Assembly: GCA_027575765.1 (NCBI GenBank) | Contig: JANBPT010000006.1 | Coordinates: 1-64,000, forward strand | Length of the DNA: 64,000 nt | Origin: Tieghemiomyces parasiticus | Lineage: Eukaryota > Kickxellomycota > Dimargaritomycetes > Dimargaritales > Dimargaritaceae | Direction: 5' to 3' | Part shown: positions 23,416-52,375 of the stretch, piece by piece | Position numbering within the stretch: the first letter of the stretch is position 1 | Layout of the letters: each line of letters starts with the position of its first letter | The notes under the pieces: generated by a model | The model's database searches: none | What the model was told of the DNA's origin: nothing | The model's input: only the letters and a program-made list of their open reading frames with translations | Translations under genes and position numbers: made by a program

Positions 23416-24693
23416 CTAGGTACGGGGGATGCATTTGTTCGGCGCCGGATGGGTGGATGAGGCTGAGGGGTTTGTAGTCGAGGCGGTACCTGTAGGAATC
23501 GCCGTGGGGATCAAGTGCGAGTAGCCGGCAGACCCCGAAGCCGAGGCGGTACCTGTGGGGGTCTGTGACGGTTCAGGGAACGGCACGGGACCAGTGGGAA
23601 TCGCCGTGGGGATCGAATACGAGTAGCCGGTAGATCCCGAAGCCGAGGTACTGGTAGACCCTGAAGTCGAGGTGCTGGTAGACCCTGAAGTCGAGGTGCT
23701 GGTAGACCCTGAGGCCGAGGTGCTGGTAGACCCTGAAGTCGAGGTGCTGGTAGACCCTGAAGCCGAGGTGCTGGTAGACCCCGAAGTCGAGGTGCTGGTA
23801 GACCCCGAAGTCGAGGTGCTGGTAGACCCCGAAGTCGAGGTGCTGGGAGAAGCCGAAGTCGAGGTGCTGGGAGAAGCCGAGGTCAAAGTGCTGGTAGACG
23901 CTGAAGTCGAGGTGCTGGCAGAAGCCGAAGTCGAGGTAGCGATCGCTCCCTCAGTAACCGTAGAAAAGCTAGTGGTAGCTGGGGGGTTACCACCACAGTA
24001 TGGCACGATCTCTAACCAGTCCATTTTAGCCGAATAGGGTGCTTTTTTCCAATCGACCTTCCCGGCCCATTCGTGGACGGGGGTTCCATCCCACACGCCC
24101 ATAAGCAGGCGGTTAGCACCCACGGGGAACTTGCCATCGTTCTTGTTTTTGATGGTGCGTACCACTTTGCCTTCGACCGAATACTTGATGGTCGTTGGGG
24201 TGAGCTCGATGGCGTACTCAAAGAACGCCGCGGATGCGTCGCCGTTGCTCAGCTTATGCTGGCCCATATCACTCTGGCCAGGCACGTCTTTGCCCTTACT
24301 GAAGAAGGTGGATTCGACGTGGTCCGTGTTGACACCAATCCATTCGAGGTCGACCTCGTCCTTGTTGGTGCCGCGCAATGTGAAGGCTGTGACCACCCCG
24401 TCGGTGGGGCCTGCTTGGAGACGCGTACGGATCAGACCGAATGGAACTTCCCGAGAATAGTTGAGGGTCGTGTACTTGTGAGTCTCGTCCAAGGTCATGA
24501 GGAGGTTGCCGTTCTCGACAGTTGCCAAGCCTCCGGCGTCGAGGATAAAGTGGTCCAGCTCGCTGGGACTGTTGAAATCAAAGTGAACCGCTTGGCAGTC
24601 ACTGCTAGCCGGCGCTGCGGAGACGGGGAGCACGATCGATAGGACAAGGAGCGCGAGAGCTGAGGCGCTCCAGTTCAGTGTGAAGGCCTTCAT
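23416..24693 (-). CDS. Crh-type GH16 chitin-glucan transglycosylase
   Basis: 425 aa, secreted. A signal peptide (about 26 residues, LPVSAAPA) precedes a GH16 domain at about 30-235. The active-site motif is DEVDLEW at 112-118: Glu113 nucleophile, Asp115 assistant, Glu117 acid/base. The motif ESTFFSKGKD further on is also typical of Crh1/Utr2 enzymes, which link chitin to beta-glucan in the cell wall. After the domain comes a Ser/Thr-rich stalk of about 110 residues, a 24-bp minisatellite at DNA level, then a Pro/Thr/Ser region with a repeated IPTAIPTG phrase. It ends NKCIPRT without a hydrophobic GPI tail, unusual for the family. Either the enzyme is freely secreted or a 3' exon is missed. 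No chitin-binding module seen. Confidence 0.88.
   Translation of the reverse strand: MKAFTLNWSASALALLVLSIVLPVSAAPASSDCQAVHFDFNSPSELDHFILDAGGLATVENGNLLMTLDETHKYTTLNYSREVPFGLIRTRLQAGPTDGVVTAFTLRGTNKDEVDLEWIGVNTDHVESTFFSKGKDVPGQSDMGQHKLSNGDASAAFFEYAIELTPTTIKYSVEGKVVRTIKNKNDGKFPVGANRLLMGVWDGTPVHEWAGKVDWKKAPYSAKMDWLEIVPYCGGNPPATTSFSTVTEGAIATSTSASASTSTSASTSTLTSASPSTSTSASPSTSTSGSTSTSTSGSTSTSTSGSTSTSASGSTSTSTSGSTSTSASGSTSTSTSGSTSTSTSGSTSTSASGSTGYSYSIPTAIPTGPVPFPEPSQTPTGTASASGSAGYSHLIPTAIPTGTASTTNPSASSTHPAPNKCIPRT
23640..23930 (-). repeat. 24-bp minisatellite coding the Ser/Thr stalk of the Crh enzyme
   Basis: About twelve tandem units of 24 bp, with the plus-strand core GAGGTGCTGGTAGACCC. Each codes eight residues of STSGSTST type. 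Units differ by synonymous or Ser/Ala/Gly changes and keep frame. Confidence 0.88.
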
Positions 24694-27105
24694 CGTGAGA
24701 AAATACGGGCGAGCTAGCTGGGAAAAGGACTAATCTGAAAAATATATATTGAAATGTAATCGTGGGGAGGTAAAAGATAGATAGCGGTGATAATATATAG
24801 ATGATGTTATAGGGGCAACAAAGTGAGAATAAGTTACCCAGATAATAAATATGGAATATAAGAGGATAAAGTCGAGTATGAAAACGATGGGACGGTTAGC
24901 AGATGACGGGCATTATATATCAGGTATAAACTCGCAAGGCCTGCCTCTCTTTTGCTCCCCACCCCACCATTCTCCCGCATCCTCCGACATGGTACAGGCT
25001 GATGGCCGGCGGTTGTGGCAAAAAGTGAGGGAGGAGGAGGAGAACAGGCGAGCAACGGAAAACGAAGGATGTTCTAATGGGATCGGAGCCGGGGGTGCAA
25101 ATAGTGGCGAGAGAGGCCAAGTGAACATCAGAAATATAGTCATTTATGAACCCGGCAGGCTTCACCGGGTATAGTTCGCCATCGTCTCGAACCTATGAAC
25201 CGCTAGTTACGAATGCAACGAGGGTCGATCAAATGTACGCGGAAGATGCGCCGTAAATCCTCGATACGCTCCCTCCCCCCACTCCCCCCCCTCTACATTA
25301 CTGGTTCGGCTTGAGGGCGGTACAGAGGGAGTGGTGGCGAAGAAGAGTGAGTACGGAAGAAACAGAACGCGAGCAGCTAGGATCTGTCGCTCCCTCCTGC
25401 TCCAATCGATTGAGATACCATATTTCTTGTTGAATTTACCTACCACACCACACCCATATGACCCTGGCTCCTTAGGAGGGGATTGTGTTGCGGAAGATCG
25501 GTTCTTTGGGCCAATAAGCAGGGGCCTTTTCACTGCCCCGCTCACTTGTATACATTATCATCTATACCATTACTTTTGACTATTTTTAGGTGTAACAATC
25601 TGTACCCTGACGATCTAATGCATCCCTAGTCACACACACGCTATCTCACAGCTTGCTTTTCCGGTGCCCAGATCAAATGGGGTAAAAGATAGACGAGGAA
25701 GGGCGGGGTATGCAAGGGTTGATCAGCGAGCAGGTATAGAGAGGCACAGTGGGATTCGTCTTCCTCCGTGTATTTACGTAGGTTCATTTAACATTATAAT
25801 AACTTCGGCAGGGTATGATGCCGCTATTCCCCCCTCCCAGAATAACCTAAAACTCGAAATGAAAAACATCCCGATGTACTTTTAGGATCATGCAAAGCTA
25901 ACGGGCTATCTAGAATGTGGAGAATGTATACTACTAGCGGCAAATTCCGCTAACCAAAGAGGACAGTCGCACTTCTCTTTAAATTAATAGCGCCGTGTGC
26001 GCACCAATGGCCGCCCCTGCTTGCATATTGGCCACCACGGCCCCAGGTAAAAGATGCAAGAGAGAAAGCGTGGGGGTGGCAGAGTGTGTAAATCATGACT
26101 GCTTGACTGCTCTGTGCCCAAATCCTTACTGATGAAGCGAATAGCTAGGTAGGTAAGTTAGAAAAAGAGGAGAGGGGGGACGACGACAGGATCAGCCCCA
26201 ACCACCAGGGCAGAACAGCATTCATATCAAAGGACTGTCGACAAGCGGAAGTATATTGTAGTGGACACGAGGGGAAGGGGTGAAGTGCCAACTTGACAGT
26301 TTGATTGGAAGGGACGAGTTTATTTTTAACTAGCAGGTCCGGCGCTGGTCGAGCTCCAGATTGACGCTCAATGATCAACCACCTTCCCCAATAGGGACGC
26401 TTTTGAGGTACGGCTACAAGTGGCATCCCCTCATCGGCCCAGTTTGACATACATAGCAAACCCTGTCCTGTCTATCAATTGCGACCACATATATATATAT
26501 ATATGGTCATGTATGAAACAAGCGGTCATTATTGCTCAGCCTTCGGATAATAGCATACCCGAGTTTGCGAATATAATGTGCACCCTGGCACCTGAAGCTC
26601 AGGAAGATTAATTATTAGAACGCAAAAACAGCTGAGAAACATTGGCAGGTTCTGACATCAAATATCCTGGTGACGAACACTCTATCCCACTTGCCTGGCC
26701 ATGGGCAAATATCCGATCTGAAGTGGGCGGTTGCTCCGGTGTACTACTGGCCACGTATTAAGGGGAGAGGGGAGAAGACTAGCAACTGAGCAGCCAGGAT
26801 GCGCATTACATTATCTTCATGGGGTTACTAGGTGGTTCACTTCAACTGGGGTCTGCCCGGTTAATCTGACAGAACCCTTTATCTCCTCAACTACTACGCA
26901 GAAAAAGGGTGAGAGATGTTTTGACCCTGTCCATCCTACGCCGGTTCTCTTGCCGCTTGCCTTAACCGGACTGGTAGAATCGCTTCTCGTCCCAATTTAT
27001 ATTTTTTATAAGAGACTGGGCAAGTCAGCTGGGCTAGCCGAGATCTACCTTTGGACCGATGACATATGACGTATGGACAGCCACGATCTAAGCGATCCCG
27101 CGGGC
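24694..27105. other. 2.4-kb intergenic stretch without supported genes
   Basis: Holds A/T-rich TATA-like tracts near 24741 and 24911 (possible Crh promoter) and an (AT)n microsatellite at about 26491-26503. Frames up to 112 codons show no recognisable domain on either strand. Confidence 0.4.
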
Positions 27106-35972: not shown

Positions 35973-37495
35973 ATGGGAAACACTCTCCGCATGCTGTTTT
36001 TCATGCTCGTATCGGCCATGCTACTAACGCGATGTCTGGGCGTGTCATTAAATAGTCCTGATTCTACCACCGACAGTTCTTCAATGACGTTGGGTAAGGA
36101 CTCGGACAAAGCCCCTAAGCCCCGACAGTTAGTCTACCGTCTTCCCTTAGAAGTCTGGGACCTGGTCTTTGGGCACACCGATCCGATGACTGCAACCCGC
36201 ATGGCCCTGACTCAACGAGGAATGTATATGGCCGCGTATTCTAGCCGCAAATTCGCAAGCCTAATGGTGAGTAATTGTGAAAAAAGATTGATCCATGAAA
36301 GCTAGCTGAAGATTGTATGGCGGGCGAAGTGGCTGCCTCGCCGTATTCTTTTTTTAAAAAGAAACCACTGGTATGTTAGTTGATTTATCCCCACTCACAT
36401 ACACACATCTCTAATCCTACAATTTACCCCTTTTTTGACGACCTTTCTGGTAATCAATATATATTATAACAGCATGCTCTGCGAGTTAACCGCGAATTCG
36501 GCCAGGCTGTAGATACCTTTGGCAGTCGGCCTCCGACACAAGAGAACTTCAGCACAACCTTAACCGCCAACCTGGGTCAATTACCCACATCAGTAATTAC
36601 CACGATCCTCCTCGACAATTTTCAAGGTCTAGGCATCGACATCAACACTATGGTGAGTCGGGCGAAGGATAAGATGTCCACATCCGCCGCGCGCCTTAGC
36701 ACGCTTGAACAGGGCCTGGTAAGCCTGGTAGCCACCCGCGATCGGTTGCGCTTCGTACCGCTTAACCACCTAGTTGCCAACCCCTTAGCATACGGCCGGT
36801 ACCCTTTCCTTGCGGTGGCCAAGGTGGGCAACGTGACTTGTCTCACCCGCTGGATCCAGACCCTAAACAACAGTATAGGAGCTTACTACCTATCGAATAT
36901 TATGCATAACCTAGTCCCCACGAGCATTCGAGACGCCTGGGATAGCGTACGTGGATTGCAGCTAAACCACAACCTGCTGCCGAAAGCGGCGCCGATCTTG
37001 GTCCACGAGCTACTTTTACCCCTCCTGACCGCGACACTGGTAGTCACCGACCACTGGGTCCGTCTTGCCGAGTGGTTTCCCGAACGCCCGTCCAACCACC
37101 GTCCCGACTCGGCGGGTCCTCTTCTAGCGACCGTTCTCGCCTGGGAAATGCAAACGGGGCCCAGGACCGACCGCCGGAAGGACACTCCTCCAACCGGCGC
37201 AGGAATGCCAGCTCCGCCGGTTCCGACCGAGACTGAGCCGATGCCGACGGAATCTGGTTACCTGGATTTTCACCATCGGCTAACGATATCTCCTCAACAT
37301 AAGGTCGTTTGTGCCAGAGAGTTTGGCTTCCGCCGAGCTGCGGAGGCCCTGGCGGATTACTACGGGTTGCTGCCGACGGATGAATATCCGGACATTACTT
37401 GCAGCACTCCGCTCTTCAACCACCAGATGATGCGTTATAATGCAACTTCGCGGCAAATCGAAGTCTTGGTCGATGTCACAGATATTACTCCTTGA
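35973..37495 (+). CDS. secreted protein with F-box-like motif, family unknown
   Basis: Two exons: 35973-36266 and 36473-37495, phase 0, GTGAGT donor, 438 aa. Residues 1-24 are a signal peptide or anchor (LFFMLVSAMLLTRCLGVS). After a Ser/Thr/Asp linker, residues 52-90 read LPLEVWDLVFGHTDPMTATR, which fits the F-box consensus (LPxE...IFxxLDP) closely, and continue into a helix. Exon 2 is about 340 residues of predicted helix without known domain, with a Pro-rich insert near 300 (TPPTGAGMPAPPVPTETEP). Motif YPFLAVAKVGN...HNLVP resembles segments in the proteins at 39 and 50 kb. F-box proteins normally act in cytosol or nucleus in SCF ubiquitin ligases, so a leader here is odd. It could be a host-delivered effector or a short hydrophobic N-terminus that is not cleaved. 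Confidence 0.75.
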
Positions 37496-38733
37496 GTCGA
37501 TTTCCAGTTGGGTTGCCCATAAAGCCTGCCACCTCACAACTACGACTCACTACTTCATTTACTTGCAGCTCCTACACAGCGGGCACCTAGAGCTGCAGGA
37601 ACTTCCCAGCCGCTGGCCTTCTAGGCCGTGTGAACGTCCATGAACCCGCCGGAGGCCATTTACTAACTATTGGAACCCATGCCCTAGTAATCGCCTAGCA
37701 GCTATCAACCCAGCCCTCCTCCATGATTCCTCTGTTTTTTTATCCCACTCTCTCGTCTTATCCTGCCTGTGCATCGTGCGGTGTTCGGGTAAATGGGAGG
37801 GGTCGGAGTCCACGTGATGGACGAGCGTGTTATCGGCTGAATAGGGCATTATGGGGTTGGATGTATCGGTAGGGTTTCAAATATGGAAAAGGGCATTAGG
37901 AGAGTCAAACAGAGGAACAGGGCTATATTGTTTATGGATTTTTCTAGGTGCTTTTGCAAGGGTAACAGCGGAAAACGGTAGTGAATAAACGCACACGGGC
38001 GTTTCGGTAGAGGAAGAAGATGACGGGTTTTGAAGGTGCACACGGGCAATGCTTCGATATAAGAGTTATAACGGTGAAGAACCAACTTTAGAATGTTTCC
38101 CGCTGAACATGTAAAATCGGGACTTGTTCTTTATTCGTTGTGCTTAACCAGCCGGCTTTTTATAGGGGATGATACCCAAAGCAGCGCCCAGTTCTTGGTG
38201 AGTAAAATTTTGATTGATGATAAAATTTTTGTATAAATCTCTAGGTCACAGGGACGTCTCCCGGAGACTGGAAGGTTCATGCTTGGCGTGCATGTCTTGC
38301 GCATACTTGCATTAGAGGATGTGAGGTTAATAGAGCGCACTAGAGGCGAACAGTCGAAGTAGTATGATGATAATTAGGCGGGACTTTTGGCGTCCCATTT
38401 TACACCTCACATAGCACCCACCTCCTCCCCACACCTCTGGGTGATCTTCCTCTCCAATAAACCCTCCCCGTCTGTCGATGTGCCCAGTGGGTGCCAAATC
38501 CAGCTTTCGGAAACCACACCAGTACACACACACTGGCCTAATTAATGTCAAAAAAACCATCACACGTACTAGGTATTTTCAAGCTATTGAAAACGGTACA
38601 GGCTACAATTTTGGCATGGCATTTATCTCACATATGAATCGACTGACAGTAGGGGTGGTACAACTTCCGGCTGAAGGTAAAGTGCCACTCAGAAAAGACA
38701 ACTAGATAAATAAATAAAGGTCACTGACAGGCT
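37496..38733. other. 1.2-kb intergenic region between convergent genes
   Basis: Both flanking genes end here. Frames of 60-80 codons only, none recognisable. A/T-richer, with runs such as AAAATTTT near 38200-38230. Confidence 0.45.
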
Positions 38734-40018
38734 TCACTGGTCGGTCACCCCATCTACGAACGAAAAGAAGTACTTATCGGGGTTACGTCCTACCGGAAGT
38801 AAATCGGGGGTTGAAAAGGTAAACAGGCAGGGCAGGGCCTCACTTTTAAATCTCTCAAGGGGGAGTGTGTACTCGACATAGTCGCTAATGATACGCCCCG
38901 CCTGGAGGGCTGTATGGCAGGATTGTATGGCCCGGTTCAAATGTTCATTTCCTACCATACCGACAGCGTTGTTAAAGGCAGCTCGGGATTCATACTTATG
39001 GCTGAGACTCAGTGCCATGAGATAGCTGTTCAGTAACCCTTGCTTGAAAGTATCAACTGAATGCTTGTCCAGGGAATCGGCGGAAATTTTGACCACCTTC
39101 TCTACGAACCTAAGGTAGCCGTCGTAGTTACCCATCGAGATGAAAGCCAGGGCAACCTGTGGAGTCAGATGGCGCATCATGTAGTCATTGAGAAGCCCTT
39201 GGGCGCTGACGGGTCGATATTTCGAAGTTTCTCCGGCTGCCCCTACTGCGGTTGGAGTGGATACGGGGGCTAAGAACGAAGCGTACAGTTCCTTGGGCAG
39301 CAGGTTCTTCGCAAAACCATCAAACTGAGGTCCGCCCTCGGCAATGGACTGAATCATAGTCTGGTAAACCTTAACAACATCTCCAATTCTGTCACTCCGA
39401 GCCCAAGCCAGAACCCGATTGACACTACTTAAATCATTTACCCCGACGGTGCCCAGGTCATCAACTTTAACTACAATTCCGACCGGCCCGCGCTCGAGGG
39501 CATTCTGGTAAATGTCAAGGGTTTCCCGGCGGAAATATTCGGCATTGACATATGGCGCCGCACGTTTCAGTGAGGCGGCATAGCATAGGAGGTCATTGTG
39601 CAAATAGCCCGCCACTATTTCCAGACTTCCATCGTTGTGAAAGGATGTCATCTCGTTAGAAGAAGGAAGCGCTGCCGTAGATCCTCCGTAGTTTTGCATG
39701 CCCTTGGTATAATCCTATGGTTAAGTTAAGAGGGGAAGTTGTCAAAAGGATTAGAGTGAGCTATCGAGTAAAATAAAAATAATAGATAGAATGAAGGATT
39801 GCCTGTGCCAACACCTATCACCATTTGCGCTGGTTGGTGCACCCTCCCTCCCTTCCATGTCTGTTGTGCGGCACCACGACGGGACTTACCTGTTGTCCAG
39901 ACTGAGGCTTGAAGTTAGATTCGATGCTGGAGAATGAAATGTATTGGTTCGACGACTTTTCGTTGGGCAGAGCATAGACTGCGATCAACAGGGCCAGGGA
40001 CATCACGGTGAGCTTCAT
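38734..40018 (-). CDS. two-exon secreted helical protein, family unknown
   Basis: 369 aa: exon 1 39890-40018, exon 2 38734-39714, GTAAGT donor, ATAG acceptor, phase 0. Exon 1 is a signal peptide (MKLTVMSLALLIAVYALP) plus a short polar linker. Exon 2 is a helix-rich domain of about 320 residues without a recognised family. Landmarks: VNRVLAWARSDRIGDVVKVY, then NLLPKELYASFL, a LTPQVALAFISMGNY helix pair, and DTFKQGLLNSYLMAL. Few Cys. These segments line up in order with the 49.7-kb protein (LEDLLAFLPEQTQ; VVPAITIAM; SEFKSSILTTIIY), which I take as distant homology. TATATA sits 65 bp upstream. Secreted; role unknown. Confidence 0.8.
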
Positions 40019-40082
40019 GGTGCAAAAGATAAGGGGGCGGGTAGGACAGAAGAGGGAGTGATAACGTGGCAAAAAAAAAAGG

Positions 40083-40088
40083 TATATA
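40083..40088 (-). promoter_or_regulatory. TATA box of the 39-kb secreted gene
   Basis: TATATA on the minus strand about 65 bp before the start codon at 40018, next to an A-run. Confidence 0.5.
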
Positions 40089-41362
40089 GGCGTGTATAAA
40101 TGAGGTGTGGCCCAAAGGCTGAATGGTAAACGAAAGTGGTGAACTACAGGGCGATTTCGCTCCACGCACGGTCCCCGGTATTTATACGTATTATCAAATT
40201 CATACCAGGAACACACACAGCTGTACGCAAACGAGTAAGCTGCCCTACGAGTTGTTTTTTCTTTCTGCTGACTTGCTTCCGTCCGTGTATTCACCGACTT
40301 TAATTTTACTAAAAATAATTCCTCACACGGTTGGTTGGGCTAAACGAAAGTCACGCGCCCGAAACGTTGACACTGTAAAGCCCAACGGAGAGGGAGGGGG
40401 GACGGAGGTCCCTTGCGTTTTTTGAATTTTGATTATTGCGGTGCATCCACCATACCTTGGATTGGTAGGACCGGGGCACCGCCACTAACAAGGGGGGAGT
40501 TAGGGGTCCCAGTTCCTCAACCACACCGACAGAGGCAACGTTACCTGTACTCAACCTTGCCCCTCCCCTCGTCCCGTCCTTGACCTTGCCCGGCCCTAAA
40601 AAAAAAATCCCTCCTCATACCACGAGTACTCTGCAACTCACTTAGCTCTCCACTCTCAATCGGCTGGGATACAGCGATAGAGGGCGGGAGAGGTAAGGAG
40701 AGGACAAAGGGAGAGGCTTTTGCCCCTACGGTGGGACGCCTAAATAAAACCAACTTTTGTGAACCGGACTGGAGGTACTTGGCTGAAGAGACGCTACGAG
40801 AGGCGCGCCTGAAACGAGCCAGAGAAGGAGAGGCCGGAAGAGCTCACTTCTAAGAACGAGGAGGTCATGAAGGGGAGTACCATGATCTTCCGATATCGCC
40901 TGCACCACGGCGAGGTCCTCATGTAGCCGCCCGGTCCTGCTCCGTGTGAGGCGGATGAGTGACTACATGACTAGGGACGGGTGGCCCTCTCGCCACCATG
41001 GCCTATAATTGTCGCTAAAGTATACCTGTAACTTTGAGGCTCGAAGGAAGGTTATGCTTTTACCATCCAGGCGTAGTGCTCTCACAATATGGACCATCGC
41101 CACTACCACTGTATTATTACACATATGTGTAGTGCTATTTTTTATATATATAATCCGTCCAGTGCATGAGCCAGAAATGGTCACTCTGCCACCAAAACCT
41201 GAGAGCACCTGTGTTCCCGACCTTCGTACTGTCTCCCCCCACCTCCTTCTTGTCACCAACGCATATCCTTTCTTAACGCTATACCAATTAGTCTAATAAG
41301 CACATAGTTACGAATCGATGTTTAGTTGTCAATGAACTCTGGCCTGGGTCCCACGCCACCAT
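40089..41362. other. 1.3-kb intergenic, no gene supported
   Basis: A possible 80-codon plus frame from the ATG at 41054 has one hydrophobic helix (TTTVLLHICVVLFFIYII) and could be a small membrane peptide, but it has no other support. Otherwise nothing recognised. Confidence 0.35.
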
Positions 41363-41719
41363 TTAAACCTCGCTCGTCAACCCAAGGGGCTTGAAAAGGA
41401 ACGTGTCGTCCTGCACCTCGTAGGGCCCTTCAATATGGTAAAAATAATCATGGGTGGTCAAGGACCCCTCGGTTTTATCGAAGGCGCGGCAGCTGATGTG
41501 GTGTACAGTACCAGCGCTTACAACCCCGTACTGGCTCGCCCGATCGCCGCCCTCGAATGTGCCGCTCCTGGCACAGGCGAATCTTTCGGTCTGGTGACGG
41601 GTCTGGTACTGTTTGGCGGCCTGGTCGACATAGGCCTGGGCGGGCTGACTAGTGGTATCCACCGGTAGCGCCAGGGCGACCGTGGCAATTACAATTGAGG
41701 CGAGGATAAAGCTGCGCAT
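41363..41719 (-). CDS. small secreted protein, 118 aa
   Basis: Single exon. The signal peptide MRSFILASIVIATVALALP has the same ALP-type end as the leaders of the 39-kb and 49.7-kb proteins. The mature part of about 100 residues has two Cys (ACARSG, ISCRAF) that may form one disulfide, and aromatic segments (HDYFYHIEGPYEV, DTFLFKPLGL) suggesting a small beta fold. No family recognised. A TATAAAA box lies upstream. A candidate small secreted effector or wall protein; this is inference from size and leader only. Confidence 0.75.
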   Translation of the reverse strand: MRSFILASIVIATVALALPVDTTSQPAQAYVDQAAKQYQTRHQTERFACARSGTFEGGDRASQYGVVSAGTVHHISCRAFDKTEGSLTTHDYFYHIEGPYEVQDDTFLFKPLGLTSEV

Positions 41720-41900
41720 GGCGTAGTAAATGGGATGGTAGTCTAGGAGGTATTATGGGGGAGGAACAAAATGGTCGAAGCGGTAGGGAGGGATAAGGGG
41801 GGAGGATGATAAAAATGGTATGCGGTGGGGGGGGGTGAAGTCTTAAAGGTCAGTTGGTCAATGGTGATGATAAAATGATAGGTGGGCAGGTGGTAAGCGG

Positions 41901-41907
41901 TTTTATA
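41901..41907 (-). promoter_or_regulatory. TATA box of the small secreted protein
   Basis: Minus-strand TATAAAA 182 bp upstream of the start codon at 41719. Confidence 0.5.
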
Positions 41908-44900
41908 TCATGGAACGGTGAGCTCTCGGCTAACGAGTTCCAAAGCTATTACCTCTCTCTCTATTTCTTTCTCTCCCACACCGCCTATGTTTCTTCGTGG
42001 AAACGAGGATCGAGTCACTATCGGATGTAATTGTATATTATTGTTTTTACGCTTTTACTCTGCTGACAAGCGGTGTAAGAGACGCTCATACCGCGGGGCT
42101 AAACGGGGAAGTCAGTATCGCCTATATCGGCTGTCGAAGGGTGGAATAGAAAAGACAGCTAGGTCTGCGTGTCACGCAACGGCTTGGGAGGAGCCCCCAT
42201 GAGAGAAAGGGGTGCAAAAGCTGGAGTGCCTTGTGTAAGTGTGACCCTACAAAGCCGTATACCCATACCTGCATCCTTTACCAAGAGCCTTCTCATAACC
42301 ACGGCGGATAAGAATGCACCATAGTGAGTGAGGGCCGCTAATAACTCTGCCGCTCGTGTACGCCAGCTTCCAATTAAGGCTGTTGTCCCGCCACAGGCCT
42401 AATTCCCCACGTCGGATACGAATATCGAGCAGGGCTTATGAAGGTTGGGTTGGGTGGACGGATTCCAGATATATGACAAAATGGGTCAGAGAGTGACGAC
42501 TGACTTTCTTGTTGGCAAGTGAGGGAAAGAGAGGGGGGTTAGAGCGCGGGGCGATGGACTAGGCGGGGTGATATCTGCGGAAGAGTCGCACAACCCGTTA
42601 CATCCGGCTAGGGGATGGCGGTCTGGCAGTCTGCAATGCTGTAGAGTATCTGACCGCACTCGTCGTACAATTGCAACTGGTCCTATCCGGTGGCCCTACG
42701 ACGGATTGGGTGGCCACAGTACCTACCTTCCAGTATGATATGGGGTGTAGGTTATTAATATATTTGAACCGGTTATCGATACTTTACTTTACTCGCGCCG
42801 GGTGACCCGAAGTAGCCACTTTTTTTGCCGGGTCTATTTCGCTAAATCTGAATTAACAAAGTAAGGAGGGGTATAGTAATGGATGACCTACTTTGGTGGG
42901 AGGAGGTGACCAACCTGGATAATAATCAACTGTCGCCGATCGATTAACCTTCTGTAGTAGAGGCTCTGCACGAAGCCGTTAAAGGCAGGTTGACCGCCAG
43001 GGCACAGAGTTGGCCAGAAGCCCATCATTGTTATCCGTATTGACTGACTCCAGACAAAGGTGAAGAGTGGGCATAGTTACAAGAGCACAGCCTCCTTTCC
43101 GTAATTGCTTCGGAGGGGGCGGTAGAGGGGGTCAGCTACCCTTCGCACACAACCACTCTCTCTTCGTATCACTCAGCTGACCACGAATGAGGTACAAGAC
43201 CTCCAGCAACTTTACGGCCGCAAAATCCATTCTCCTTTGACAATTCCAGCAGCCACCCCTCATCGTGGAGACGTGCTGTTAGTAGTGGACTGACATGCCG
43301 TACCGTTTTAATCTCGGTAGCTGTTGTATCCGGCATTTCCCTTACCGAAGCCGCGGCCTTAGAACTCAAACGTCTGCTGCCATAGAAATGTAAACAAAAA
43401 GGGGGGTGGAGAAACATTAATGGGGGCCGCCGCCTCTGTAACGGCCTCGAATTTCCCGTCCTTTCAGTTTCTGCCTTTCAACCCACATGCTGTGTCACCA
43501 TTTGCCGACCGTGTGCTGCTTCCTGATCAGTCGGATACCCTAGCCCTATCCAACCGCCCCTCCCACCTCCCCATCCGCCGCCTCATGGCTGGATCATGTC
43601 TTGGAAACCATAACCGCGAGCACTTTAACCGTTGGTGAGCCCTTCTCGCAGCTGGCAGGTGCTTTATTTACGGCTATCATTACTACCCTAGGCATATAGT
43701 TCATTGGTGTTATTAAATGGTATCAGATGAACCCCTTGCATCGAGGCTATCGTGCAAATGTCCTCCTTTTCCATCAAAAATCGATTAGAACCTGCTACAG
43801 ATGACAACGTGTCAGATCCCAAGACTAATGTGGCGGTTTGGTATGTCCAACGTTGACATCATCGAACCCCATGAAGCAATCCAACGCCTCCTTCTAGATC
43901 GAAAAGGGGTCAGTTCTACTTATTGTACACATCACCCCACCAACTGCACCCTTGACAGCTTACATTGTAGCCAAGCGCTGGCGTTAACATAGGGCCTCGG
44001 TCGTGCATCACTCGACCGGCAGATTCACGCATATTAGCCTGTCTGGGGAATGTAAACCAGTTCATCAAGGTTGAGAATTATAGGCGGACCAGCAGACTCA
44101 AACTTGAATCAACACTGGCGTGAAAAGGTATGACTGTAATATAAACACTGCCATTTGTTAGTCCCCGAGTTAAACATCCCAGCGTCCGGGGTATGTCACC
44201 CTCGAGTTGTTGCTGGAATCTAAATCACGTGATATAGAAAAGGAACGTACACAGAAGCTCCACATACGCGTGGGGGATCCACGAATGGACGCGCGGCGGG
44301 CGGAGAGATCGTCACGCGTCGATTAACATCAAAACAACACGTCGGCGACTTGCAGTTGATGGGGCCGAGACAACTGGGGTCTGCTGCCAGGTTTCCCATC
44401 ATCACATCCTAGCCCTCGCGACTAGCGTCTGAACCCCCCACCTTTTACGCACCTTGAGCACCCACGCTGCGGCCAACTTAAACGCACGTTTATTGGTAGA
44501 TTTGGACCGCCCCTTTGCTAAACAATCCGCCGATTTAACGCGCTTAAAGGCCCATCACAGAAATGGCGCATTTCAACTCCCCCCTCCAAAGGGGTATACC
44601 GTTGCAGCCGAACATTCGATCCCGGCCGGGTTCATTGTCGATAAGGCCAACGGTCGGGTGAGAGCCGTGGTGAACTGAGCACTGGCGTCATTGATTTCCC
44701 CTTGTACTGTTGACAGTACCGCCGCGGCCACGGTGAATGAAAGGGTGAAGACCCATCCTCCAAACCTGGCCGGAAGTGGGTGAATTAGCGAGCCTGCCCC
44801 TGGGTACTCTTGTCAGCCCCTCGCATCTAATGGCCCGCCAGGTGTATTAGGCCAACCGGGCGTCCCACTTTGACGCCATAACCCCTCTTGTTCTTGTTTG

Positions 44901-45363
44901 ACCTCTGTTTGATTACACACCTAAACTTTGACAGCAGAAATAGGCCCACCCCCCCTTCGACTCGGAACGTGTCTCGAACCCCACCTTCGCCCCGCGACCC
45001 TTTCGCACCCATACGCTAGTCCTCTTACTCGCACGCTGGTGTTTGGCCTCTAGGCTGTTTAGGCACTGCAACACCGCTCGCCACACATTTGCATTACACC
45101 TCACGTCGGCACCTCTGCAAGACCTGAGCGGGCACGAACGCGCTACACTCTTTTGCCAACCCACCGCATTCCGCCTTAGCCCTTACCACTTGGGTTTCCG
45201 AGGTCTAGCGCACGTACTGCACCGGTACACATCTCACCTACGCGTCGCCCCCCTCGCCCGTATCCTCTGACCTGCTGCGTCCCGTTCATCCTAAAGTCTC
45301 TTACCGCCACGTGGACCAGCGCGCATCGGTTCTACCTAGGCCTCCGCTTTTCGGAACGTCGCC
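41908..45363. other. 3.5-kb region with coding-like fragments but no gene model
   Basis: Three plus-strand pieces have codon use like real exons but lack starts or partners. 42572-42808 contains AVEYLTALVVQLQLVLSGG. 43801-43992 starts ATG after CTACAG and contains HEAIQRLLLDRKG. 44454-44678 ends PAGFIVDKANGRVRAVVN then TGA. They could be exons of one gene, or remains of decayed members of the secreted family. The last 300 bp are the pyrimidine-rich leader of the gene at 45364. Confidence 0.3.
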
Positions 45364-47009
45364 ATGGCCGCCTACTTCAATATCTACGGCCTGTTCCTCT
45401 TCTTCAACCTGCTCAACCTCGCCGTTTACGGGCTGGTCATTGCCGTCGCTTGCAAGAATGTCATCCATTCGGCCACCAACGTGATCATTTACAACAGCTA
45501 CACGGGTAGTCTGTGTCTGCTACTCTTGTTCGCTGAGTTCCGTTTACCCAGTTTCGTGCACGAGTACCTCAAGTTTCTCTGTACGTACCGCGGCCGAGGC
45601 CTACTGTATACATTGTAAGTACCTAATCATACGGCTCATGGTGTCCTTACGAGTCTACCCGAAATATAGTGCAGGCCGTTCGCTCTGCCTTTATTTTATT
45701 TTTTCAAACTCCGACCGAGTCCGCCTGACTTACCCAATACCCTGACCTACTTTGTTGCGTATCACCTTCAATACCCTATCCTAAACATTTCAGCTTTGGG
45801 TGTCTCGTGTACGCCCCATCAACGTTTAACATCGTGGCTTGTATTCTAGTCGTCTCGGTGGGTGTCGCGTTCTTCCTGCTCTCCTGGGTCCCCATGGCAC
45901 CGCCCAGTTTCGGTCTACTCGACAACTGGCGGGCCTGGACTTATCAGGGCACCCGCAATCTCTACCGCAACACCACCAAGGCTGACCCGCACAACTCCAA
46001 ATACGTTGATCTCACCAGTCACGACCACCGCCGCGTGGCTGACGATATCCTTGAGTACCATGAAGATCAGTACATGACCGACCTGCGTGGTGAGGATATC
46101 GAAATGGTCAAAGCCGACCTGCGACGCCACCCCACGGCGTCGCACCTCCACCGGGGCGTGTCTATGGTCCACGCGCCGTCGTTAGACCACCCGCACGAGT
46201 TCACCCAGCGGCATACTCTCGGCAAGACTTACGTGGCCTCCGCCACCATGCCGAACGGTTCCGCCTCCTCAACGTCCTCAGCATCTTCGGCCACCGCCAA
46301 TTCCTCCACGGGGTCCGCGGCGGTACCTTCCCACGTGAATAATTTAGCCCGGTCCCTCACCGCCGCCCCGATGACCGGTGGAGCGCACACTAACACGCTA
46401 ATGACGGGACCCGGCGCCACTGCAGCACACTTCTCGACCGTTGCCGGCTCACCGCCAACTTGGAACCGCACGAATCCGTTCTACCCGACGCTGCAAGCCA
46501 CGTCGACCAGCCTGGCCATCCAGGACCTCGCTATGGAACTTGACCGGGCCTACCCGCTCCCACTGCCACCGGTGGCCTATAACGGTGACACCCATACCAG
46601 CGCGGCCTACCGTCCCCTGCCGGACGCCTTCGCTGCCGACGAGGAGGATGATGGCGACTACGACGTCGGCTACGATAGGGCTGAAGGGAGCGAACACGCC
46701 CGCGAGATGGCCCGGGCCGCCGCCGCCGACGCCGGTCTCTCCGCCACGTTAGCGCTCTACAGTCCGAGCGACGCTGGTCGTCGCGGACCCGTAGACGCCG
46801 CCGCTTTCGATCATCCTTACCTTGCCTCCTCTGCCCACCCAGACTGGTCTTTCCGGGTACCGCCAACCGCCGCCCCGCTCACCTCCCATAGCCTTGAACC
46901 CACTTCGACCTCTGACTCGGACCGTACCGCGGTACCTACATCTTCGGTTCTGGCCGAAATTCAGCAGGCGGTGTTTGAATCCAGCCACATGAGAGGCCGG
47001 GGAATATAG
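45364..47009 (+). CDS. COPI-associated (COPI_assoc) four-helix membrane protein
   Basis: 488 aa from exons 45364-45614 and 45794-47009 (GTAAGT donor, CAG acceptor, phase 2). The first 115 residues contain four membrane helices with the family's hallmark between helices 2 and 3: LLLFAEFRLPSFVHEYLKFL then YRGRGLLYTFFGCLVY, the junction falling inside it. COPI_assoc proteins are small Golgi/ER membrane proteins of uncertain function linked to COPI vesicles. Here the usual short protein carries a tail of about 370 residues, mostly Ser/Thr/Ala/Pro-rich and probably cytosolic, with an acidic patch (ADEEDDGDYD) and a YPLPLPP motif. The tail may bind adaptors; that is inference. Confidence 0.82.
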
Positions 47010-49739
47010 GGTGGAAGTCACCGGTACCACCCCCCCCCCTTTCCTCCGCACTGCTGCCCCTCCCCCCTCCCCCGCTTGTCGCCCAATTGGGGGCTCTTCC
47101 ATGCCTCCACTCTCTAGGATATTGTCTGTCCGATTACCTTTCTGTACCTAACTTACCCTTTCGCCGCCAGATTCCTGTCTTGCTTCGCACTGTTCCATCG
47201 CCTTCTCCTTTGCGTATCGCCCATGCCCAAACCTTCGTCCTCCTTTTTGTACCATTTATATATATTTTGGGTTCTGTGCCCCCCTACACTGTGCTTGCCC
47301 TAATGTCTATCAACCCCTCCCCGTCCTCTACCATTTCATCTTCCTTGCACCATTGCCAGCAATACTCCATCCTCCTCCTCCTCATTCGCTTCTTCCTATC
47401 ACCTCTCCATTTACGGTGTTCGCCGTTCTAACAAATGCCTACCGGCGACTGCCTCCCTCTCATAATTGTACCCCAATAAATACCCTACATTCACTGTTTC
47501 GTATCGCTCTATTCGCGATAGGTCTACATGAATCGAATCTGCGCGTCCGTTCGCGCTATCAGAGCACCCTATCGCTGAACCATTATTTCGTTCATGATGC
47601 TTTCTACCCTGTTGTCTCGTGTTGACGAGTATCAAAGAGACGCAACCGTATCTTAAGCTCTACTGTGAGCGAGGACTCTTGTGTAGGGCAGTTTTTTTCT
47701 TGACAAGCCAGTGAAGATCATGTAAATATGAGATCTAACTTCTAGAGTGAAAGTTTACCAACACAATACAGCCAGGACGAGGAATATACTAAATCATGTA
47801 CCCTAGAAATAGGATGGTCGATTTTGACCCACTGGCGCCCGTGCCGCCGATAACCTTCACTTGCTGGGTTGCACGGCGGAATTGGGGCGACCAATGACAG
47901 TAATGGCGGTGGCATTAATTATGGGGGTAATACATTCAAGCTAAAGCAGGTAGTTGTAAGGGTAGGGGAGAAGGCTAAGGGAAAAGCGGGGCAACAAGGT
48001 GGTAGCCGAGTGCTACGAAATACCAAACGATACAAGGGGGGGGGTATAGGTGATAAAACGGAGGAGGAATCTCAGAAAGGCTGAGGGCTTCCGAAATTAA
48101 CAATAGTTTTTTTTTGGGGGGAGGGGTTTCGGGTTTTGCGATTAAGGTGGCAAGGGGAACAAAGGTAAGCTAATGGCGGCGCCGATTGGTAAGGGAATAG
48201 AACCAAGGACCAAAGGGAAAAATAATCTGTGAATAAAAGGGTAAAGGAAAAGGAACATCAAAGGCAATAATGGTGAATACAAGTCCCGTTAGATCGTAGA
48301 AAAGGGGCAGGAGAATCCCCGGTTCCTGTTTCGGCACCGCTGGTATCGTTTTATCCTTCGTGGCAAGCGAAAATAGGGCGAAGAATGGTAGACGCAATTA
48401 TGAACGCTACAATGGTAAATAAAAATAATGATCATTTAGAGCTGGATCCTTGACCGGGATTCGATGTATTCATGAAATGAAAAATGTACGTTGGGGTCTG
48501 GCCCCCCCCTCTTTTACCAGAACTGACGCAGGCCTGCTGTTTCAGGTGAGCCAAGGGTATGCGACAGGCTTTAATGGTATCGGTGGTAAAGAGCCCATCA
48601 GATAGTCCGTGGCTATTACAAGCAGCGGATGGCCAGTGGTCGACAATTATAACTACGGCAACCACTCGCATGTCACCGTCGAAGCAAAAGGGATGGTGAG
48701 GGTAGCTACGCGAGGGGGGTGAAGTCGCGTGTCGCGCAAGTCCTACTTCCCCCTTCTTGCCATTCATTCATCCAGCCGTCCGAGTACTACTAACCGAAAT
48801 CTGAGAATTAGGCGATCAGACCGAGCTATTATTTTTTACCTTCCCCCCTTTCCGCTTTACAATGACTCCGCGTCTCGACGAGACGTACGGTTTCTGTAAA
48901 GCCCGCCCTTCCCTTTGTAAAACGAGACCGGTCCAAATGTCCCCTATGGAGGACCCTCGAGACAAACGACACATACGGGCCCGCACGATACCTAAATATA
49001 GATACAGAACCCGGCCCGCTTGCATGTGTGATTTTGGCACGGGTCCCTCGTTCACCTTTCCCTTCGGATCCCGCCTCCTCGCGCTGTATCATACGATTAA
49101 GAGCCGTGGACTATAAGGGTATCCTATGTATCGATGCCGATGAATATATCCCCACCACATGACCCAGGCGTTTCGAGAATTTCCAGTCGGGTCCCTCCCG
49201 CCCACCGCCCGTCCAACCAAAGCGGCGAACGAGAGTGTGGCGTCGAAAACGACACCAACGTTACAGCTTAGAGAGGGGGGGATAAGGGTGAAGGCAACAG
49301 CGGGAGAGGATAGGAGATGGTGGCGTCGTTGTGCGCAAAAAGGACGAGGTAGGAAGCCCCACAGCTACGTTCAACTGGATCACATTCTAATATATATATT
49401 AATATCTCACGATTTCCCTCCCGTCCTGTGTGAATCAAGCTGGATTACTTAGCCTTCCCGCCCAACAGACAAGTCATTTCAAGTGCTCTCTCCCCAATCG
49501 CGTACCAATTGCACTACGTATCGCCAAAAGCCGTTTCTCTTAGGTAGGTTGGCTACTAATCACAGGCCCTGTGACTCTAAGCATGCGTAGCTGCGCATGT
49601 CCGGGGCCTGTAATCATATAGAGAATCCATCTCCATACCTTCCCTGTCGATTGCTCTACCTTACACTTTCACTTTCACTCACCACTCAACTGCCGATTAT
49701 TTTTCGATCTAAACATCACAATTATCATTCTTTAGCGCT
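47010..49739. other. 2.7-kb intergenic, no gene supported
   Basis: Begins with CT-rich 3' sequence of the previous gene. Frames up to 114 codons, composition biased by low-complexity DNA. A T8G-rich stretch near 48105-48127 and a C-run near 48500 are seen. The palindrome at 49560 is listed separately. Confidence 0.4.
49560..49618. repeat. nested palindrome
   Basis: TCACAGGCCCTGTGA (49560-49574) is a perfect odd palindrome. Further on, CATGCG and CGCATG flank a six-base loop. Around both, ATCACAGGCCC at left is answered by GGGCCTGTAATCAT at right. The whole can fold as one long hairpin. It lies about 120-180 bp upstream of the ATG at 49740, so a regulatory role or a MITE remnant is possible. 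Confidence 0.55.
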
Positions 49740-51274
49740 ATGAAAACCGCCGTTGTCCTTTATACCCTCGCCGTCTCGGCTTTGGCTTTGCCAGCCCCGC
49801 CGGATTCGCAGACCGGGGGCGTGCATGTCGCATCCGGCTTAACTAGCCCTTTCAATTCGGACTGGCCCATAGACCAATTTGTTGACGAGCCGGAAGAACT
49901 GAATCCGAACGGCTACGATCCATATCCTAGTCGCAAAACACCCAAGTCGAGGTACTTCACCGCGTCTGAATCGCTTTCCGAGGGCTGGGGCAGTGGAGAG
50001 TCATTCGAAGGCTTTGACCAAGCCGAGGACGTCAATTTCCCCTCCCCCGAACGCTCAAGTTCGATCGTAGGCATTGCTACAATTTCCCAGCATGAAACTG
50101 ACCCGACCGCGGAGAGCCGCAATCAGGCCCTGGTAAGTACGAACGACTGACGAATACCCCCTCACTGGTGCACCCCCCCCATGAGTGCATCGGCTCCATT
50201 AGGTCAATTCCACACTTATGAAGAAAACCGGGTTCAAGCGCTTAGCCCTTTACCAGCCTAAGGGTAATATTATTGTGAAGAAACACTAACCTACCACATG
50301 GGGCTCCCTGTTTGTAATCGTCATTTTCCTGCATGTAGGCCGCTTCTCCTCATTTCCTGGTCAGTGAGCTTGCTCCGTGTCTCAGGGCCCTGGCGCAGAC
50401 CTACTTCACCCTCGCCGAGGCCGCTATCACCACCGTGCCCGATAACGTCTCGCAAATGTCACAGGCCAACATGTACTACAGTAGGCAGGAGCGTCCGCAG
50501 ACCACTGGTGGGGATACCTACGCCTTATTCGATTACCCGATCCCTGCTGAATACCGCAAAGCCGTTGGCGACCAGGATCTGGTCGTACTCGCCACTGAGT
50601 ACGCCGAGAACAAGCCTGATGATTCTGTGCTCATTGGAGTCCTGGAAGCTCTGTTTAACGGCGCTGAATCTGGCACCTTGCTTGAGGATTTACTGGCTTT
50701 TCTACCGGAGCAGACACAGAAGGATTACCGATCCTACGTACCCGACGCAGCCGGCGAGACCGCCACCAGATTCGGTCTAAAGTTCATTGTGTCGACGGTC
50801 GTACCCGCCATAACCATCGCCATGTGCCAGATTAACCGGTGCGGTAAGGCCGCGGAGCTTTGGGACAGGTTCTTGGAGACAAGTTCTGACCCGAGCGAGG
50901 ATAATGGTTCGGCCGACCGGGTCTCTACGCCGAGTGAATTCAAGTCGTCCATTCTGACTACCATTATCTACATCTCCAGCTTTTTCTCAGAGGAGGGTTC
51001 TAACGACGTAATCTCTACGAGAGATGCTAGCCGGGCTAATGAGCTTGAGCAACTCCTAACGACCTATGATTCTCAGCTTGCTTCAAAGGACAGAATGACC
51101 CTCAGCAGGGTCCTCAAAACTCCGATCGACAACCGCTTGATATACGGTTCGTTGTTTCTGAATATCGATGAATATTTGTTCGAGCCATCGGAGAAGGGTC
51201 TCAACCTGGCCCTAAGCAAAAGGTTTTCGCCTCAATCGACCGCCGCAGCCAAGAAAAAATTTAATTGGTTCTAG
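49740..51274 (+). CDS. two-exon secreted helical protein, family unknown
   Basis: 442 aa from exons 49740-50132 and 50339-51274, GTAAGT donor, GTAG acceptor, phase 0. Exon 1 gives a signal peptide (VSALALP) and an acidic, Ser/Pro/Asp-rich linker of about 110 residues. Exon 2 is a helical domain from about 132 on: LRALAQTYFTLAEAAI, then LIGVLEALFNGAESG, LEDLLAFLPEQTQKDY, FIVSTVVPAITIAM, FKSSILTTIIYISSFF, and RLIYGSLFLNIDEYL. The two Cys near 285 (MCQINRC) are close together. The order of motifs parallels the 39-kb protein. It ends in a Lys-rich KKKFNWF. No known family. Secreted; function unknown. Confidence 0.8.
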
Positions 51275-51730: not shown

Positions 51731-52192
51731 TTAGAAAGTGAGCAGGGCAGCAAGAGCAGTAAACCCGGCGGCGACGCCGACACCACGGAAGGCGGCGGCT
51801 CCGCTAGTAGTGTCGTTGTAGTCTTCGGCAGTGTTCTCGACGGCACCAGCAGCGTTCGTGGGAGTACCGGTGGCCTTAGCCTGGTTGGAGGACGAACCCG
51901 AACCCGAAGGGGAGGCGGTGGCAGTGGAACGGGCGCTGGAAAGGCGGGTGGACTGATTGACCACTTGGGACGCCAGGTTGGTTGCGACGCTCTCGGCCCC
52001 AGCAGCGACCTCGGTAGCAACGCCTACGGCTCCCGACGCAATGACAGTGGCCACGTTGACGGCGCCCGAGGCGACGTTCTGGCCAAATTCGATCACATCA
52101 CCGACAGCGTTGCCAATGTCACCGGCGAGGTCGGCGACAGCGGGACGGACCACAGCAAGGACGCAGACGGTGGCGAGAGTCTTGAACTGCAT
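51731..52192 (-). CDS. GPI-anchored-type Ala/Ser/Val-rich surface protein
   Basis: 153 aa, single exon. A signal peptide of about 20 residues (MQFKTLATVCVLAVVRPAVA) leads to an Ala/Val/Gly-rich amphipathic region with an 11-residue rhythm (NVASGAVNVAT, VIASGAVGVAT, EVAAGAESVAT). A Ser/Thr/Gly-rich spacer follows, then a small-residue site (TTSGAAA) before a hydrophobic C-terminal helix ending AALLTF, the layout of a GPI attachment signal. No enzyme domain and no Cys beyond the leader. I took the Met at 52192; the 18 residues before it, from 52246, are non-hydrophobic and would bury the leader. Probably a cell-wall or plasma-membrane protein. Confidence 0.78.
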   Translation of the reverse strand: MQFKTLATVCVLAVVRPAVADLAGDIGNAVGDVIEFGQNVASGAVNVATVIASGAVGVATEVAAGAESVATNLASQVVNQSTRLSSARSTATASPSGSGSSSNQAKATGTPTNAAGAVENTAEDYNDTTSGAAAFRGVGVAAGFTALAALLTF

Positions 52193-52375
52193 GATGATTA
52201 GCGGGCGTGAGCGAGGATGAGTATTAAAAAGACGCGGATGATACAAGTAGGCTGAGGTAGGTCAGGCACCTAAAAGACAGCTGAGGTGGAGTTGGAGGCT
52301 AATGGTATAACAATGCGGGAAGGTAAGACAATGACGGGTAACGACTGGTAGCAAACTGCTGGCGCACCGGTGCTT

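Follow-up and report, generated by a model that had tools for sequence, protein, structure and literature searches.

Three two-exon genes lie within about 15 kb of each other in a 64,000-nucleotide stretch (the window) of contig JANBPT010000006.1 from Tieghemiomyces parasiticus, a mycoparasite of the Dimargaritales, and raise the question whether they form one family and what such a family would do. Haustorial mycoparasitism is the lifestyle given for this order in PMC10386755. A first-pass annotation had taken the genes, here called A (36.0-37.5 kb), B (38.7-40.0 kb) and C (49.7-51.3 kb), for a co-located cluster of diverged, secreted helical proteins.

Gene structures and their alleles

All three genes consist of two exons separated by a single phase-0 GT-AG intron at the places proposed earlier. 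Gene A is encoded on the forward strand. According to its frame, donor, leader rule and F-box profile, exon 1 (35973..36266) comprises a signal peptide up to residue 23 (35973..36041), a linker and an F-box at residues 56-94 (36138..36254). It is followed by an intron of 206 bases (36267..36472) and by exon 2 (36473..37495), which, judging from its frame and profile matches, encodes a helical domain of 340 residues plus stop. Gene B is located on the reverse strand, with exon 1 (39890..40018; signal peptide and linker, by frame and leader rule), an intron of 175 bases (39715..39889) and exon 2 (38734..39714), a helical domain of 326 residues plus stop supported by its rank with the T and INT profiles. 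Gene C, again on the forward strand, has an exon 1 with a signal peptide and a long linker, but without F-box (49740..50132; by frame, leader rule and public protein), an intron of 206 bases (50133..50338) and an exon 2 (50339..51274) for a helical domain of 311 residues plus stop, which has relatives (D, E and F) elsewhere in the genome. These exon-2 lengths agree with the 310-340 residues originally estimated. Over 442 residues, the model of C is identical to the public protein IWQ60_000253; for A, the public model (IWQ60_000249, P0004) lacks the leader because it begins within the F-box.

Signal peptides were called with a rough, home-made rule and not with SignalP. A, B and C each have a leader that passes it, as do D and F, and the two leaders described as ending in ALP are those of B and C, with the motif divided after the A. 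For A, the predicted cut falls after residue 19 in the window and after residue 23 in the allele.

Contig C1214 is collinear with window positions 35050-55680 over its whole 20,588 bases (91.6% identity) and most likely represents the other haplotype. On this contig, A, B and C have 85-89% copies, which we considered as separate paralogues from a duplicated cluster; we rejected this reading, since collinearity extends throughout. Many F-box clusters in the assembly also occur as pairs. Frames and introns of the three genes are intact in the second haplotype, and their leaders pass the home-made rule in both. Allelic dN/dS values were 0.54 for A, 0.75 for B and 0.33 for C, which is raised but below 1; five conserved comparisons gave 0-0.15, and a secreted neighbouring gene gave 0.27. 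Of the fast-evolving effectors or adhesins suggested at first, the rapid evolution is borne out by these values; an effector role would fit, and an adhesin found no support. The first-pass annotation had overlooked this haplotype, the F-box in exon 1 of A and the genome-wide family described below.

A genome-wide set of F-box genes, many with predicted leaders

The putative F-box of A lies on exon 1, flanked by the leader upstream and the intron downstream. With a family F-box profile built without A, the protein scored 8.5 bits and its allele 14.0 bits, none of 100 shuffles did better, and A was the best of the 626 window frames (E 1.7e-4). PF00646 matched a trimmed 74-residue piece of A with 12.7 bits (E 0.13, cut-off 20.5), and Pfam searches with the whole protein and with the whole exon 1 returned no match. 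In B, neither the family profile nor Pfam found an F-box; C contains a chance stretch that 17 of 100 shuffles equalled with the family profile, and no Pfam F-box; in D and F the family profile found none. Pfam gave nothing above cut-off for B and C, leucine-rich families included, and no leucine-rich or other match in exon 2 of A or in D and F. The exon-2 domains of six relatives matched neither leucine-rich nor other Pfam families. At the Pfam cut-offs the three proteins match no family, but the earlier picture of proteins without any known domain needs correcting, as exon 1 of many relatives and, by the family profile, of A encodes an F-box.

Searching the T. parasiticus genome with PF00646 yielded 96 places, 90 of which were read. 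Instead of a local cluster of three genes, we found a genome-wide family of dozens, a size that is to be read as a lower bound. By the home-made rule, a leader precedes the F-box in 43 of the 69 rows outside the long-frame group, spread over 27 of 40 clusters, and 24 leader-bearing rows exceed the Pfam cut-off. Comparison of 39 distinct F-box exons showed a phase-0 intron exactly 41 codons after the F-box proline in 23 of them. The same donor position and phase occur in A, together with the leader (home-made rule) and the F-box (family profile) that define exon 1 in the family. The typical layout would be a short exon 1, often encoding signal peptide, linker and then F-box, with a phase-0 intron some 41 codons beyond the F-box proline and a single long exon 2 for the helical domain. 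A appears to be such a typical F-box form, with B and C as apparent secreted forms without F-box.

Ordinary intracellular F-box proteins carry the same F-box and are also present in this genome (e.g. L035-L038). They differ in their long frames, higher F-box scores and allelic dN/dS values of 0.05 and 0.12 (two pairs). When the rows were first grouped, five of the 22 with long frames passed the leader rule; two of these (L117, L119) were later moved to the other group. We judge it quite improbable that the whole family is an expansion of this intracellular kind, with hydrophobic N-termini that reflect wrong starts or first exons, or membrane anchors, instead of leaders. Such a reading would account for the leaderless relatives with the same exon-2 domain (L041, L049, L056, group T) and for the public model of A that starts inside the F-box, and the leader exons are predicted gene models. 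However, the leaders ahead of the F-box show a cut site and an uncharged core and are far more frequent than in the control, where 8 of 418 frames pass the rule; A, B and C have retained theirs in both haplotypes; and the start codons stand in the same open exon as the F-box, a short way ahead of it. Because leaderless genes exist (e.g. L041/L042, L049/L079, L056/L064), the family is not wholly secreted.

A different possibility, which we regard as unlikely but somewhat less so, is that the proteins are secreted and act outside cells, for instance on the cell surface or in the recognition of self and non-self, and that the F-box fold only caps the helical domain as a structural element, without contact to SKP1. 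Leader and F-box share one exon, B, C, D and F have a leader and no F-box, and delivery into a host would be a further step that we infer. No partner of the F-box is known outside the cytosol, which we also count in favour of an extracellular role. On the other hand, the F-box is conserved to a degree that lets the 24 leader-bearing rows pass the Pfam cut-off despite strong divergence elsewhere.

Relationships among the exon-2 domains

The INT profile was built from the second exons of F-box genes, leaving out A, B and C, and run over 152 frames. It recovered the A allele (3.7e-5), B (7.2e-4), A (0.0013) and the B allele (0.01), while the next non-family frame followed at 0.19, so that A and B outrank every non-family frame. 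In addition, the exon 2 of the A allele matches L135 (E 9.9e-4), and B was the best of the 626 window frames with the T profile (E 0.035). Not every profile mix recovers B: it was outside the top 12 with the IN profile, and 18 of 21 decoys did as well with AIN (E 0.76) and five of 21 with AINC (E 0.35). A profile that combines A with group I aligns through its columns 81-225 to B (E 0.024) and through columns 85-224 to C (E 0.018), and in neither case was any of eight decoys better; other profile mixes gave no link for B or C. Single E values around 0.01 weigh little here, because many mixes were tried. On these rankings, the exon-2 domain of the family appears to be present in both A and B.

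The direct similarity between B and C that had been put forward could not be reproduced: BLASTP aligned them in another register (E 0.31), and the C-family profile scored B at 0.33, no better than shuffled columns. The motifs said to occur in the same order in both proteins can be placed in a common register through the profile of A plus group I, but not by comparing B with C directly. By their rank with the INT profile, A and B are the best-supported pair, and not B and C.

C belongs to a subfamily of four loci (C, D, E and F), of which E was represented by its open exon alone. It is a serious possibility, if somewhat short of an even one, that these four are a separate secreted family similar to the F-box family in layout only. 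By hhalign over 144 frames, the INT profile ranks D 11th, C 19th (E 0.21), E 50th and F 100th, and the best outsider found by hmmsearch with the C-family profile has an E value of 0.36; B scores no better than decoys with this profile. Against a separate origin, leader, phase-0 intron and one-exon domain are common to both groups, and hhalign with the C-family profile over the 144 frames places, own members aside, L057 (0.0049) and A (0.013) first. A profile of D and E finds, next after C and F, the F-box gene with leader L055 (E 0.017), and phmmer relates A to E (0.0087). The link of the C subfamily to the rest of the family is no more than suggestive. The claim that the three genes are one family is best supported for A and B, both top-ranked by the INT profile, and is less secure for C.

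AlphaFold modelled exon 2 of C as helical hairpins with a final strand pair (pLDDT 59.5, pTM 0.68); the model of A was unusable. Locus E (L013 1745-2362) adjoins D and looks degenerate, with a stop codon, seen by eye, in its likely leader exon.

As the best explanation, which we put just under an even chance, A, B and less certainly C would belong to one rapidly diverging family, an expanded set of secreted F-box/helical effectors in a fungus that parasitises other fungi. A literature search found no description of such a family in T. parasiticus, and protein searches for relatives in other species (about 8,000 candidates scored each) gave T. parasiticus proteins only. The initial picture is supported in that the family appears secreted, fast-evolving, mostly helical and, as far as these searches reach, undescribed, and has a phase-0 intron following the leader exon. 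Many F-boxes are near or below the Pfam cut-off, no Pfam model covers the tested exon-2 domains and gene A is leaderless in its public model, which suggests that the family is easily overlooked.

A candidate role in the host fungus

The secreted F-box effector is a known kind of protein, represented by RipG/GALA and SSGP-71. SSGP-71 genes are present in large number. In the Hessian fly (Mayetiola destructor), SSGP-71 effectors are described with an N-terminal F-box and C-terminal repeats, interact with host Skp proteins and include one described member without F-box (PMC4617103). The T. parasiticus genes, as candidate effectors, resemble them as parasite F-box genes with F-box-less members. 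They differ in that SSGP-71 serves an insect on a plant and has leucine-rich repeats, which found no Pfam match in the tested T. parasiticus exon-2 domains. RipG/GALA proteins of Ralstonia solanacearum likewise have an F-box and, after it, a repeat domain that binds the target; for RipG7, the same source (PMC4617103) reports binding to plant SKP1-like proteins and an F-box that is required for virulence. In contrast to the family described here, they are bacterial, type III delivered, leucine-rich and directed at plant hosts. A fungal example is NLS_30765 of Rhizophagus clarus, a secreted effector candidate with the F-box-like domain PF12937 (PMC4746824); as presented there, it is one candidate, from a plant symbiont, in contrast to an expanded family in a mycoparasite.

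In their most likely use, the proteins would be released at the haustorium and reach the inside of the host fungus, where the F-box would dock on the SKP1 of the host and the variable helical domain would select host proteins for ubiquitination; members without F-box could act as decoys or bind targets directly. We tentatively propose, at rather less than even probability, that dozens of secreted F-box adaptors and their F-box-less sister forms enter host hyphae and rewire host SCF ubiquitin ligases. If true, this would be a fungus-on-fungus counterpart of the GALA and SSGP-71 effectors on a different helical scaffold. According to our literature search, protein-level host manipulation by haustorial mycoparasites of early-diverging fungi is little studied, and the genes provide a concrete set of candidate effectors in which leader, F-box, intron and helical domain are each testable. 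SKP1 genes are also present in the T. parasiticus genome itself.

Two-exon genes on both haplotypes

The first-pass annotation had proposed that three genes share a plan, with a signal peptide and linker ahead of a phase-0 intron and a single long exon: A (exons 35973-36266 and 36473-37495, + strand, 438 residues), B (exons 40018-39890 and 39714-38734, - strand, 369 residues) and C (exons 49740-50132 and 50339-51274, + strand, 442 residues; product identical to IWQ60_000253 of Tieghemiomyces parasiticus). Gene models, leader calls and the second haplotype bear out this plan: all three introns are GT-AG and in phase 0, and the leaders satisfy our home-made signal-peptide rule on each haplotype. 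The window corresponds to C920:1-64000 in an assembly of 46.5 Mb (1363 contigs). Within this assembly, the short contig C1214 (L010-L012) is collinear over its whole length with window 35050-55680 (91.6% identity), and the frames and introns of A, B and C are unbroken on it. Many F-box clusters are likewise present as pairs. Two haplotypes seem to be present in the assembly, C1214 being the second copy of window 35050-55680. In the public models, gene A (P0004, IWQ60_000249; window 35973-37495) starts within the F-box and has no leader, and the allele of C (P0002) misses the start of the leader exon.

Similar motifs had also been noted in B and C; direct similarity among the three was not recovered by BLASTP (best E 0.31-4.3). 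A genome search identified relatives of C: D (C1055/C804) matches it with 30-32% identity (E 2.8e-20 and 6.6e-15), F (C317) matches D (3.6e-11 and 1.2e-9) and reaches C at 0.56, and the more distant piece E, which adjoins D, matches D at 0.0057. D and F have the same layout as C, with leader, linker, phase-0 intron and a single long exon. E and D are about 2 kb apart (L013 1745-4990); by eye, E appears degenerate, with a stop codon in its likely leader exon.

F-box genes across the genome

Searching the genome with PF00646 returned 96 places. Frames were read for 90, one of which has a stop inside the F-box match; the other six places have open frames of 327-594 residues. The remaining read places were split into a long-frame group of 20 and 69 others. 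L061, L117 and L119, among the 69, are also long-framed. A leader between Met and F-box was called in 43 of the 69, and 24 of these 43 rows pass the Pfam cut-off. When rows were collapsed at 70% identity into 40 clusters, a leader was called for one or more members of 27 of them and for all members of 24. Under a first grouping, the counts were 41/67 outside and 5/22 within the long frames; other-frame stretches of the same loci, used as a control, gave 8/418. All leader counts are rough because the rule is home-made and overlooks leaders plain by eye in L046, L077, L083 and L101. Since gene A is absent from the 96 places, the true family is larger, and a PF12937 search gave 84 places, part of them additional to the PF00646 set.

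An F-box pattern, LPLEVWDLVFGHTDP, was seen by eye downstream of the leader in exon 1 of A. PF00646 did not match the whole protein or the whole exon 1 of A, and gave 12.7 bits (E 0.13; cut-off 20.5 bits) for a hand-trimmed 74-residue piece. A family profile built from 39 distinct F-boxes, excluding A, scored A with 8.5 bits and its allele with 14.0 bits, and none of 100 shuffles was better for either. Over 626 window frames of at least 50 residues, it ranked exon 1 of A first (E 1.7e-4; next 0.52). The same profile had no match in B, D or F and, in C, only a stretch reached by 17 of 100 shuffles. The first suitable donor in the 39 distinct F-box exons, some of them without a called leader, is in phase 0 in 32 and phase 1 in 4, while 3 exons have no such donor. 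Its distance past the F-box proline is exactly 41 codons in 23 exons and 40 codons in 5, and two of the four phase-1 exons have an additional donor at 41 codons. The donor of A is in phase 0, 41 codons past the proline. By its profile match and agreeing intron position, A is a predicted member of the F-box family.

The exon-2 helical domain

The exon-2 set comprised 22 sequences of F-box genes and alleles, to which five (L133-L137) were later added. Links found by phmmer defined the groups T (15 sequences), I (L055, L061, L135, L137), N (L040, L128, L129), K (L046, L051, L053) and W (L057, L123). For group I, leaders were called for L055/L061 and L107 (exon 1 of L135), and none for L085 (exon 1 of L137). 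No leader was called in L041/L042, L049/L079 and L056/L064, F-box genes that have the family's exon-2 domain and intron as well: forms predicted to be secreted and leader-less forms share one family.

The end of A aligns to group I (9.9e-4; best of 8 decoys 0.023), its allele matches L135 (9.9e-4 among 39 sequences), and a profile of A plus I picks up group N at 2e-5 and group T at 3.1e-4. For a blind test, an INT profile (groups I, N and T) excluding A, B, C and their alleles was run against 152 frames of at least 150 residues. With L042 (an F-box gene, allele of L041) set aside, the ranking was led by the A allele (3.7e-5), B (7.2e-4), A (0.0013) and the B allele (0.01; next 0.19), and hhalign on 144 frames left this order unchanged (0.0028, 0.0066, 0.015 and 0.016; next 0.088). 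The T profile alone found B at 0.0085 in the same test and placed it first among window frames (0.035; next 0.72). These INT, hhalign and T-profile ranks indicate that the predicted helical domain of the F-box family is common to A and B. The IN profile detected A and its allele (both 2.3e-5), with B not within the top 12. Adding A, the AINT profile reached B at 0.0075 (0/21 decoys better), AIN at 0.76 (18/21 equally good) and AINC at 0.35 (5/21 equally good).

Membership of C in the family is less sure. Roughly one and the same column range of the A-plus-I profile aligns with C (0.018) and with B (0.024), and none of 8 decoys was better. A C-family profile in hhalign on 144 frames placed L057 (0.0049) and A (0.013) on top, own members aside, L055 ranks directly behind C and F with a D+E profile (0.017), and A matches gene E by phmmer (0.0087). 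Against the link count the INT ranks among 144 frames (E allele 10th, D 11th, C 19th, E 50th, F 100th). By hmmsearch, the best outsider of the C-family profile was no better than 0.36; AINT and AIN reached C at 0.18 and 0.3, yet 0/21 decoys were better.

The predicted structure of C exon 2 (7 sequences; pLDDT 59.5, pTM 0.68) consists of helical hairpins and two short terminal strands. The model of A exon 2 (6 sequences; pLDDT 42.6) is unusable, its end likewise being helices followed by two strands. No known fold stood out.

Allelic divergence and a candidate role in the host

Between haplotypes, dN/dS (NG86) was 0.54 for A (exon 1 0.88, exon 2 0.46), 0.75 for B and 0.33 for C, and for exon 2 of D, L050/L058 and L055/L061 it was 0.50, 0.74 and 0.66. 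Comparison values were 0.05 for a membrane-protein exon of the window, 0.15 for the aldo-keto reductase adjoining D, and 0.12 and 0.05 for two intracellular F-box-WD genes; the 0 of the AIR carboxylase adjoining D is by choice, because its 138-codon stretch was picked as protein-identical, and one more pair yielded no value. A small secreted-looking protein outside the family, adjoining C (window 51731-52261, - strand), gave 0.27. As dN/dS exceeded 1 in none of the genes compared, relaxed constraint and diversifying selection are indistinguishable.

T. parasiticus is placed in the Dimargaritales, which a review describes as haustorium-forming mycoparasites of mostly Mucoromycota hosts (PMC10386755). 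Dozens of fast-changing copies combining leader, F-box and variable helical domain in a haustorial parasite would be consistent with effectors that are delivered into the host and exploit host SKP1. Analogous cases are RipG/GALA and SSGP-71, an F-box-less member of which is described as well (PMC4617103), and, as one fungal candidate, Rhizophagus clarus NLS_30765 (PMC4746824). Among the matches listed, literature on Tieghemiomyces, Dimargaris, Zoopagomycota mycoparasites and secreted F-box effectors showed no such family, subscription literature being thinly covered. The T. parasiticus genome has its own SKP1 genes (C114, C435, and two fragments).

Elsewhere in the window, repetitive frames at 14476-15379, interrupted by an assembly N run, encode a protein rich in Pro, Asn and Lys, and a likely leader lies upstream of them. 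By eye, a frame at 22728-23249 resembles the final part of a mariner-type transposase, and 23416-24729 (- strand) looks like the gene of a glycosidase-like, likely secreted protein whose long tail consists of Ser/Thr repeats.
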